Below are positions 3,861-38,603 of a DNA stretch of 64,000 bases, one piece after another. Below the pieces are notes generated by a model that saw only the letters and a program-made list of their open reading frames with translations, was not told the DNA's origin and did no database searches. A program made the translations under genes and the position numbers. Origin of the DNA: Sphingobacterium paludis (GTDB lineage Bacteria > Bacteroidota > Bacteroidia > Sphingobacteriales > Sphingobacteriaceae). Where the stretch lies: the NCBI RefSeq assembly GCF_004364125.1, contig NZ_SNZV01000006.1:124001-188000 (forward strand). The letters run 5' to 3'. Positions within the stretch are counted from its first letter, which is position 1. Each line of letters begins with the position of its first letter.

Positions 3861-3933
3861 GATTCTGTAGCTCAGCTGGTAGAGCAATACACTTTTAATG
3901 TATGGGTCCTGGGTTCGAATCCCAGCGGGATCA
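3861..3933 (+). tRNA. tRNA-Lys (anticodon TTT)
   Basis: 73 nt folding as a full cloverleaf: acceptor stem GATTCTG with CGGGATC, D arm GCTC/GAGC, anticodon stem ATACA/TGTAT with loop CTTTTAA (anticodon TTT, reads AAA/AAG), T arm CTGGG/CCCAG with TTCGAAT loop, discriminator A. CCA is not encoded, so the 3' end must be trimmed and CCA added. Identical over its whole length to the gene at 15092. A tandem array of its own 3' tail follows immediately. Confidence 0.97.
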
Positions 3934-3934
3934 C

Positions 3935-4275
3935 GGAAGGCACAAGAAATTGTGCCTTTTTTGCTATTTAAGGGATTCGAACAGAAGGGTTGGGATGGGT
4001 TCGAACTCCCTCGTTCCGGACTTGTGTGCGGGGATGCGCGACGGAACATATCCCAGCGGGATCACGGAAGGCACAAGAAATTGTGCCTTTTTTGCTATTT
4101 AAGGGATTCGAACAGAAGGGTTGGGATGGGTTCGAACTCCCTCGTTCCGGACTTGTGTGCGGGGATGCGCGACGGAACATATCCCAGCGGGATCACGGAA
4201 GGCACAAGAAATTGTGCCTTTTTTGCTATTTAAGGGATTCGAACAAAGGGGTTGGGATGGGTTCGAACTCCCGGA
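3935..4275 (+). repeat. tRNA-tail tandem array, 131-bp unit, 2.6 copies
   Basis: Units start at 3935, 4066 and 4197 (exact 131-base period; the first two look identical, the third stops after GGGTTCGAACTCCC and reads GGATCA). Each full unit holds a terminator hairpin, a spacer, a core with GGGTTCGAACTCCC and the stem GTTCCG...CGGAAC, and ends in a copy of the tRNA 3' tail (TCCCAGCGGGATCAC). GTTGGGAT at the core start pairs with ATCCCAGC of the tail. Frames through the array are not proteins: the period is not a multiple of three. The core recurs at 15166-15415 and 17925-18052. Confidence 0.9.
3937..3964 (+). terminator. Rho-independent terminator of tRNA-Lys, duplicated in each array unit
   Basis: Stem AAGGCACAA / TTGTGCCTT with GAAA tetraloop and a T run, starting four bases past the tRNA. 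Copies recur 131 and 262 bases downstream, so read-through RNA meets up to three terminators. Confidence 0.85.
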
Positions 4276-10567: not shown

Positions 10568-10695
10568 GGGCGTGTCCCTTTGCATGGTTTCCACACGCAA
10601 AGCCAACACGCGCCATGCAAGCGGGTCGGGCTATCCGCTATATCTTTTGTTCCGCCAAAGCGGCACAAAAGGATGCCGCTTCTATCCCTCACGCA
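10568..10695. repeat. Intergenic palindromic repeat of a type widespread in Bacteroidota
   Basis: Contains GGGTCGGGCTATCCGCTATA, a hairpin CTTTTGTTCCGC / GCGGCACAAAAG (10644-10671, loop CAAA, one mismatch) and the ending GATGCCGCTTCTATCCCTCA. I recognise this pattern as a recurring intergenic repeat in flavobacterial and sphingobacterial genomes, from memory only. The open frames across it are not proteins. It lies directly downstream of the minus-strand membrane-protein gene. Confidence 0.6.
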
Positions 10696-10719
10696 AAGCT
10701 TATCCAACCGAGCGGGTGT

Positions 10720-15091: not shown

Positions 15092-15164
15092 GATTCTGTA
15101 GCTCAGCTGGTAGAGCAATACACTTTTAATGTATGGGTCCTGGGTTCGAATCCCAGCGGGATCA
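15092..15164 (+). tRNA. tRNA-Lys (anticodon TTT), second identical copy
   Basis: Identical in all 73 positions to the tRNA at 3861, with the same -7 region (TACCTTTG at 15042-15049). Loop CTTTTAA gives anticodon TTT. CCA not encoded. Followed at once by a different tail array whose terminator is unrelated in sequence to that of the first locus. Confidence 0.97.
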
Positions 15165-15165
15165 C

Positions 15166-15415
15166 AAAAAAAGCTCAATCGAAAGATTGGGCTTTTTTTG
15201 TGCGCTGGGATGAGAACCCAAGGGTTCGAACTCCCTCGTTCCGGACTTGTGTGCGGGGATGCGCGACGGAACATATCCCAGCGGGATCACAAAAAAAGCT
15301 CAATCGAAAGATTGGGCTTTTTTTGTGCGCTGGGATGAGAACCCAAGGGTTCGAACTCCCTCGTTCCGGACTTGTGTACGGGGATGCGCGACGGAACATA
15401 TCCCAGCGGGATCAA
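15166..15415 (+). repeat. tRNA-tail tandem array, 125-bp unit, two copies
   Basis: Units 15166-15290 and 15291-15415. Each consists of a terminator (AAGCTCAATC-GAAA-GATTGGGCTT), then CGCTGGGAT (15203-15211), core GGGTTCGAACTCCC plus GTTCCG...CGGAAC, and the tRNA tail; CGCTGGGAT pairs perfectly with ATCCCAGCG (15275-15283). The second unit differs by GTGTAC for GTGTGC and ends in A instead of C. The core is the same as at 3935-4275, but terminator and spacer are not, so the core arrived first and the local flank was then duplicated (inference). Confidence 0.9.
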
Positions 15416-17808: not shown

Positions 17809-17924
17809 GTTTTTTCCACCTGTTGAATCTTTAGCTATTTAAAACCACAAAGCATGTGCTGCTAAAACATGTAGAAGTTGGTCCCTACTAATTTTTTTGG
17901 ACAAGCTCAAAACGCAGCGTGCAC

Positions 17925-18052
17925 CACCATAAAAGCTCAATCGAAAGGTTGGGCTTTTATGGTGCGCTGGGATGAGACCCCAAGGGTTCGAACTCCCTCG
18001 TTCGGGACTTGTGTGCGGAGATGCGCGACGGAACATATCCCAGCGGGATCAC
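17925..18052 (+). repeat. Orphan tRNA-tail repeat unit without a tRNA
   Basis: One diverged unit of the array type: terminator hairpin AAGCTCAATC-GAAA-GGTTGGGCTT, CGCTGGGAT, core GGGTTCGAACTCCC, GTTCGG...CGGAAC and tail ATCCCAGCGGGATCAC. Here the terminator stem is extended by CACCATAAA/TTTATGGTG flanks. No tRNA precedes it. Its terminator and spacer match the 15166 array, 2.5 kb upstream, so it was probably copied from there. Confidence 0.8.
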
Positions 18053-18520
18053 AAAAAGCAATACCTTCGCGCAGCCTTAGCCCCTATACGTGAAGAATAA
18101 ATTGATCGGGCTCTATACAGTTTTATTAAAATCCTAGTGGCTGCTCTCCCTCGCTACGAACTGCATACATATAGGAATGAACAAAATCTCATTTTCTGTT
18201 CATAGGCTCCTGTAGGCAACTTGACTAGGGCAGCGAGAGGCTGCCCTTCGCAAATCTGCTTCACGCTGAGAGCACTACGTTTGGTATCAACGAAACAGTT
18301 GATGTTCCAATAAATAAACCTCATCATGCATAAATACAAAAATATTGCGTATGTTCACTGGTAAATTTTCAGCGCATATGCATATGGAAAACATAAACCT
18401 TTCCTCCGCTAATGCAAGGGGAAACAGCTAACAGGAGAACGTGAGGACTACAGCCGTTACCTCAAAAAACTGCATACAGCATGTCAGCGACTTGAAAGAT
18501 CTATTAGGAACAGGGAAATT
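18053..18520. other. Intergenic region with no convincing gene
   Basis: 470 bases between the orphan repeat and the serine hydrolase. Frames on both strands are short and lack starts or family resemblance. A frame open into the hydrolase start (from about 18412) has no ATG of its own. No terminator or -7 box stands out. Confidence 0.3.
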
Positions 18521-38499: not shown

Positions 38500-38560
38500 G
38501 ACTAGATTAACAGATGCTGCCATGACTAAACGCGCGAGCGAGGTAAAGGGTCTGTTTGAA

Positions 38561-38603
38561 AGCTTACAGGTCGAGTTGGAAGCTTACAGGTCGAGTTGGA
38601 AGC
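38561..38603. repeat. Exact 20-bp tandem duplication
   Basis: AGCTTACAGGTCGAGTTGGA occurs twice back to back (38561-38580, 38581-38600), plus AGC of a third copy, in the gap between DUF4202 and the converging receptor. Recent slippage product; no function seen. Confidence 0.8.

Follow-up and report, generated by a model that had tools for sequence, protein, structure and literature searches.

What kind of sequence settles behind two copies of the same tRNA gene, keeping one core and exchanging its terminator? The question is raised by a 64,000-nt stretch of the Sphingobacterium paludis genome (C6:124001-188000 of 4.78 Mb; referred to as the window, from whose first letter all positions given without a contig are counted). 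Two sequence-identical tRNA-Lys(TTT) genes lie on its forward strand at 3861-3934 (locus A, found by ARAGORN) and 15092-15165 (locus B, found by ARAGORN and as Rfam RF00005; T-arm GGGTTCGAATCCC). A sequence-only reading had placed a tandem array behind each gene, and both arrays were borne out: array A (3919-4272, forward strand) comprises 2.7 copies of a 131-bp unit at 99% match, the third unit ending short before the core, and array B (15150-15414) comprises 2.1 copies of a 125-bp unit, likewise at 99% match. As that reading had also proposed, a comparison of the two arrays revealed a common core and tail, represented by GGGTTCGAACTCCC, GTTCCG...CGGAAC and the tail ATCCCAGCGGGATCA, together with terminators of different type, namely AAGGCACAAGAAATTGTGCCTT at 3937-3958, 4068-4089 and 4199-4220 in array A, and CACAAAAAAAGCTCAATC/GATTGGGCTTTTTTTGTG at 15163-15202 and 15288-15327 in array B.

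The anatomy of the unit can be followed along the forward strand of array B. The tail occurs three times, first as the T-stem 3' strand plus acceptor 3' strand of the tRNA (15150-15164), then at 15275-15289 and finally at the array end (15400-15414). In unit 1, the tail is followed by a terminator hairpin with an 18-bp stem, a GAAA loop and a U-run within the stem (15163-15202), an inverted copy of the T-arm and tail (15203-15220), a direct T-arm-like segment GGGTTCGAAC (15222-15231) and the core dyad GTTCCG-23 nt-CGGAAC (15238-15272), which the covariance model R1 matches at 15236-15279 with 55.4 bits and whose stem covaries (see below). The inverted copy, CGCTGGGATGAGAACCCA, is 89% complementary to TGGGTTCGAATCCCAGCG of the tRNA (15141-15158) and has its locus A equivalent in GGGATTCGAAC; it is the element that had been taken for a closing stem. 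Unit 2 repeats the layout with its terminator hairpin at 15288-15327, inverted copy at 15328-15345 and core at 15363-15397 (R1 15361-15404, 54.0 bits), and the array A cores lie at 4013-4047 and 4144-4178 on the same strand (R1 4011-4054 and 4142-4185). Read from the tRNA, the order is thus tail ATCCCAGCGGGATCAC, terminator hairpin, inverted copy, GGGTTCGAAC, a short spacer, core, AT and tail, so that the unit resembles a further T-arm plus acceptor 3' strand, interrupted by the core. More generally, units are about 125-145 bp long, contain no gene and are built from a terminator, an inverted T-arm copy, GGGTTCGA, the core dyad and the tail of the host gene. In a shuffle test, the 250-nt array folded with z = -8.3, with much of the signal coming from the terminators.

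The fifth core copy of the window (17998-18041, R1 43.3 bits) belongs to an isolated forward-strand unit at 17915-18053 that has a Lys-type tail and no upstream tRNA. An apparent ortholog of this unit, with similar upstream sequence, is present in the sister species G019 (L166). As side observations, the window also contains an unrelated Flavo-1 RNA on the reverse strand (Rfam, 10620-10704, 58.5 bits) and 2.4 copies of a 20-bp tandem repeat at 38556-38603 (TTGGAAGCTTACAGGTCGAG).

Across the S. paludis genome, model R1 recovered 23 core copies scoring 32-56 bits, with the next match at 14.6 bits; given this gap, the copies are not chance matches. Inspection of 57 tRNA and tmRNA genes answered the question whether other tRNA genes carry the core: in addition to two of the three Lys(ttt) genes, arrays with the core stand behind five further genes, Ser(gct), Ser(gga), Ser(tga), Pro(tgg) and tmRNA. 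The core stems differ between these genes, with GTTCCG/CGGAAC at Lys, TTTGCG/CGCAAA at tmRNA, GTTTAG/CTAAAC and GTTCAG/CTGAAC at Ser and GCTTCAG/CTGAAGC at Pro, and the pairing is kept throughout. All S. paludis host genes share the T-arm GGTTCGAATCC. Arrays occur behind 7 of the 20 genes with this T-arm and behind none of the 36 others (Fisher p = 3e-4, a value to be read with the gene copies being non-independent and the array pattern having missed degenerate remnants). A second tmRNA-type core with its tail cut off was also noted about 0.7 kb downstream of the tmRNA array (G000 C7:89146; L010 2147-2189).

The core was found in 76 of 93 sampled Sphingobacterium species genomes (E up to 1e-3), including S. 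chungjuense, S. micropteri, S. allocomposti and S. griseoflavum. With stricter filters, the matches among 395 genomes of the class were confined to Sphingobacterium and a single genome from a sister genus within the family. A named match outside Sphingobacterium, Pararcticibacter amylolyticus, has one unit behind tRNA-Ser(tga), in which the direct repeat extends a few bases past the tRNA. Among 80 core loci, a score-ranked and not a random sample, 58 lie directly behind a tRNA or tmRNA gene on the same strand (Ser(tga) 21, Lys 19, tmRNA 6, Ser(gga) 6, Ser(gct) 5, Pro 1), and the core is mostly 71-150 nt away from its host gene. The proposed link of the core to tRNA tails is thus supported, across six kinds of gene.

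Apart from the tRNAs, no Rfam family reached its gathering threshold in the S. paludis arrays. BTnc231 appeared once, at 34.9 of 80.4 bits, and was gone on repetition with slightly less flank; we took it as chance, as we did a single short match among plasmids (25% coverage). Searches of phages, viral contigs and 5,426 E. coli genomes gave no match to the array, and a literature search found no publication describing such arrays. The repeat family, which is not in Rfam, thus seems to be undescribed.

The sequence-only reading had further proposed that the core duplicates its local flanks, and for the tail this was supported. In 38 of 59 loci with a gene upstream, the tail of the first unit is identical to that of the gene over 14 nt. 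Within gene types, unit tails follow the variant of their own tRNA (738 matches; the permutation maximum was 731, and none of 2000 permutations was as good), as exemplified by Lys CCCAGCCGAATCAC in G062 and Ser CCCTCGC in G041 and G071. Because the tails follow species-specific variants of the adjacent tRNA, they are made locally or homogenised by conversion. Units also turn over. The locus B ortholog in G019, the only genome sharing the rtcB-tRNA-Lys neighbourhood, has a 93% identical upstream region and is occupied as well, so that no clean empty site could be reconstructed; there, the terminator of unit 1 is of the other type, and the cores read GTTCAG in unit 1 and GTTGCG in unit 2. That the units at orthologous loci differ between sister species is hence shown for this one locus pair. 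Identity within arrays is 99-100%. Nearest-neighbour core copies come from the same gene type in 64% of cases versus 24% at random, and near-identical cores are common to Lys and tmRNA as well as to Lys and Ser. The dominance of inheritance within gene types fits slow vertical descent as well as it does mobility. Taking specificity and turnover together, we give an even chance to the reading that the arrays are a non-coding repeat element, tethered to tRNA tails, that spreads and turns over by recombination.

Core copies away from tRNA tails had been named as the observation that would speak against attachment, and 22 of the 80 core loci indeed have no tRNA just upstream. In many of these unlinked arrays, the sequence opens abruptly with the final 15-25 nt of the tRNA that matches the array. 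Two complete genomes, G085 and G057, revealed the missing gene further upstream, in the same orientation as the array and separated from it by integrase genes, in five cases spanning 12-107 kb: tRNA-Pro 2629174 to array 2641154 in G085 (12 kb) and, in G057, tRNA-Pro 806028 to array 841857 (36 kb), tRNA-Pro 2962017 to array 2854442 (107 kb), tRNA-Ser(tga) 1959742 to array 1940243 (20 kb) and tmRNA 2121815 to array 2151614 (29 kb). Among the proteins encoded near the displaced arrays are an AAA_25 ATPase and integrases that have SAM-like and arm-binding domains. Since the missing tRNA lies upstream and integrases lie between, these five arrays are tRNA-linked by origin and were displaced by islands; the apparent exceptions were thus explained in every case that was checked, and the tRNA link stands for these. 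In S. paludis, tRNA-Pro C8:16489 adjoins an integrase and a Pro array lies on C10, which fits displacement across contig ends. At least eight free Lys-type arrays (L009, L155, L156, L179, L206, L028, L022, L041) start with a conserved non-tRNA sequence, GAGTTCGAGTTYYGTACCAGTGGGTTCAC, the reverse strand of which can be read as a conserved peptide, VNxLVxNSNxxLxDLRRLNQLK.

This traffic of islands bears on a reading that we regard as possible and somewhat unlikely, namely that each unit is a gene-less IME or ICE remnant or a minimal passenger, arranged as attL, att arm sequences and attR and mobilised in trans by tyrosine integrases. Islands and units share the same target, from the T-loop to the 3' end; the displaced arrays begin exactly with 15-25 nt of tRNA 3'-end sequence; and integrase genes lie within about 1.2 kb of four arrays. 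At a second S. paludis gene, tRNA-Pro C8:94683, what follows the tail of the unit aligns with the island end of G057 and G085 at 87% identity over 71 nt and 70% over 578 nt; in those two genomes, the island end follows the tail of the tRNA itself. From this alignment, the island may have entered the tail of the unit, or the unit may have arisen between tRNA and island. However, the island ends examined contain neither core nor inverted T-arm, the cores are not carried on islands, and a tail brought in on attP should match the variant of the local tRNA only if conversion intervened.

Is the core maintained as a structure? In a curated alignment of 29 sequences, anchored on the core and with copies falling into two length classes, the 6-bp core stem was paired in 96.6% and showed 34 double changes compared to 10.9 in shuffles. 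As some of these sequences came from a script that required the stem, the test was repeated with the structure-free model R2. Among 122 distinct copies, the stem was paired in 97.6%, with 74 double-changed cells compared to 12.0 in shuffles, and its covariation score was 0.335 against at most 0.073 for slid partners, some bias remaining in these values from seeding R2 with the same 29 sequences. The covariation that had been predicted for the closing stem, by contrast, was found in part. Anchored on GGGAT-like motifs upstream of the core and scored at four variable positions, it gave 183 matches to the tail of its own unit versus 145 ± 8 in 2000 permutations (maximum 167), and many units had no match. 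The closing stem therefore looks more like a decaying inverted T-arm copy than a maintained stem, to judge from these alignments. The strong conservation of the core stem, in turn, suggests some function beyond hitch-hiking.

Such a function might reside in an RNA, with units acting as processed tRNA 3' trailer repeats, comparable to E. coli rtT RNA, or as free-standing sRNAs with an active core hairpin. The compensatory changes are what this would predict, the units sit right behind highly expressed genes, and the tandem tail copies recall those at tyrT. We nevertheless consider it doubtful. Of the 80 loci, 68 have a terminator-like hairpin separating the gene from its first core, compared to 35 of 240 random windows; this makes an abundant transcript less likely, though read-through may occur. 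Moreover, the stem in tRNA sense has 4 G-U pairs and 8 A-C mismatches; these numbers are small, and with G-U not exceeding A-C they give no indication of folding as RNA in the tRNA sense. The lack of an Rfam family at threshold points the same way, and the RtT model matched the S. paludis arrays neither at its gathering score nor at E up to 10.

Very unlikely, in our view, is a role as decoy attachment sites kept by the host, with extra tails diverting integrases from the tRNA gene. It would account for tRNA-Pro C8:94683, where the island end stands behind the tail of the unit and the tRNA's own tail is untouched, but that locus can also be read the other way round, as a unit arising between tRNA and island, and the five islands described above used the tRNA's own tail despite the array being present. 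Least credible of all is plain tandem duplication by replication slippage at the quasi-palindromic tail-terminator region, with no mobility and with common ancestry behind the likeness of loci, since the large inverted repeat of tail, terminator and inverted tail and the near-identity within arrays would suit it, but one core stands behind unrelated genes (Lys, Ser, Pro and tmRNA), only those with GGTTCGAATCC, and units were replaced at an orthologous locus in sister species.

We therefore return to the repeat element tethered to tRNA tails, which in our model would operate as follows. One unit would insert or amplify right behind a tRNA or tmRNA gene with the T-arm GGTTCGAATCC, supplying terminator, inverted T-arm copy, GGGTTCGA and core dyad, and would end in the tail of the host gene. 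As the unit brings both a terminator and a tail copy, the tRNA would stay intact and transcription would still stop. Since all units end in the same tail, they could multiply, get lost and be exchanged by recombination between tail copies, and the core would occasionally move to another tRNA gene. The tail copies being the attB sequence of tyrosine-recombinase islands, arrays and islands would repeatedly disturb each other. We infer that insertion with tail duplication takes place and that it would be carried out by a putative recombinase acting in trans at the T-arm, together with homologous recombination. A bolder version, which we offer tentatively and think rather improbable, would make the units a new class of gene-less, site-tethered elements that settle behind whichever tRNA or tmRNA gene has the T-arm GGTTCGAATCC, rebuild their border from the local tail by means of a putative recombinase and provide tail copies as surrogate attachment sites for islands.

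With the families searched, no recombinase or autonomous partner gene was found. A RAYT/REP-type mobiliser was rejected, as Y1 transposase counts do not track core counts across the 93 genomes (rho -0.03) and Y1_Tnp is absent from 10 of the 14 genomes with at least 10 cores. GIY-YIG proteins were attractive candidates because Sphingobacterium also has tRNA-tail arrays built from GIY-YIG genes; they were likewise rejected, since the correlation with core counts was not significant (rho 0.33, p 0.11, n = 24) and none of the Lys, Ser, Pro or tmRNA units contains a GIY-YIG gene, the PF01541 loci examined being at Val, Met, Asn, Arg, Ala and Asp. Retron, integron attC and group II domain V readings, considered by stem shape alone, were set aside.

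The arrays are a genus-wide repeat family on a favourite integration site of bacterial islands, and they show that such a site can multiply behind a tRNA without harm to the gene. They also offer naturally occurring additional att copies, with which one can measure how often the tRNA tail is used relative to a copy, and a covarying core hairpin whose putative partner protein could be looked for.

Several known systems invite comparison. The tyrT locus of E. coli has tandem repeats behind a tRNA gene, each with a copy of the tRNA 3' end, and in this respect resembles the arrays described here. The Sphingobacterium units are unrelated to it in sequence, and they differ in sharing one covarying core across several tRNA genes and tmRNA and in carrying a terminator in every unit. 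rtT is an RNA released during tRNA processing from the tyrT transcript and from many other E. coli tRNA operons (PMC4986893, citing Bosl and Kersten 1991 for rtT and tyrT). With IMEs and ICEs that target tRNA genes, the units have in common the target from T-loop to 3' end and the tRNA 3'-end direct repeats, since tail copies bound every unit, and islands occur at these very loci. In contrast to such elements, the units are gene-less, 125-145 bp long and tandem, with a core dyad missing from the island ends seen; PF00589 integrase genes belong to the neighbouring islands and none lies inside a unit. REP/RAYT elements and MITEs are similar in being multi-copy, short, non-coding hairpin repeats, and the non-coding units show a tail duplication and an inverted tail copy, albeit a decaying one; unlike either, they are bound to tRNA tails and not scattered.

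A parallel architecture is found in GIY-YIG arrays, for which T4 SegB, a free-standing homing endonuclease, offers a comparison. In G041, tandem 360-bp units with a GIY-YIG nuclease ORF stand behind tRNA-Val(gac) (L129-L131); single GIY-YIG units stand behind Met, Asn and Ala (L133, L144, L139; L116), the Ala unit being from another genome of the class. The Val, Met, Asn and Ala units end in the 3' part of the tRNA, with a palindrome in place of the anticodon arm (e.g. TCCCGACTAGTCGGGA). At tRNA-Arg(cct), the layout is mirrored, with GIY-YIG units upstream of the tRNA (L136 in G033 and L114 in G099), and in front of each unit stands a duplicate of the tRNA 5' half fused to CCTGCCTGCCGGCAGGCAGG. 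A second GIY-YIG group lies away from tRNAs (L134, L135, L137, L138, L143, L145), several members being flanked by short CTCGCAATGACG-like repeats. After a tRNA-Met, a GIY-YIG gene with an in-frame stop lies right behind a T-arm copy (L075, G000 C2:441684 region), and at another tRNA-Met (L076, G000 C2:485481) several tail-plus-terminator units form a core-less array containing ATCCTCCAGCCGGCGGAT. The GIY-YIG arrays at Val, Met, Asn and Ala share with the core units the tandem succession of terminator, payload, hairpin and tRNA 3' part; they differ in that an ORF is present and the palindrome replaces the anticodon arm, whereas the core units have no ORF and the core breaks the T-arm. This parallel suggests that tandem units made of a tRNA part broken by a hairpin are a wider habit in these bacteria, with or without a gene.
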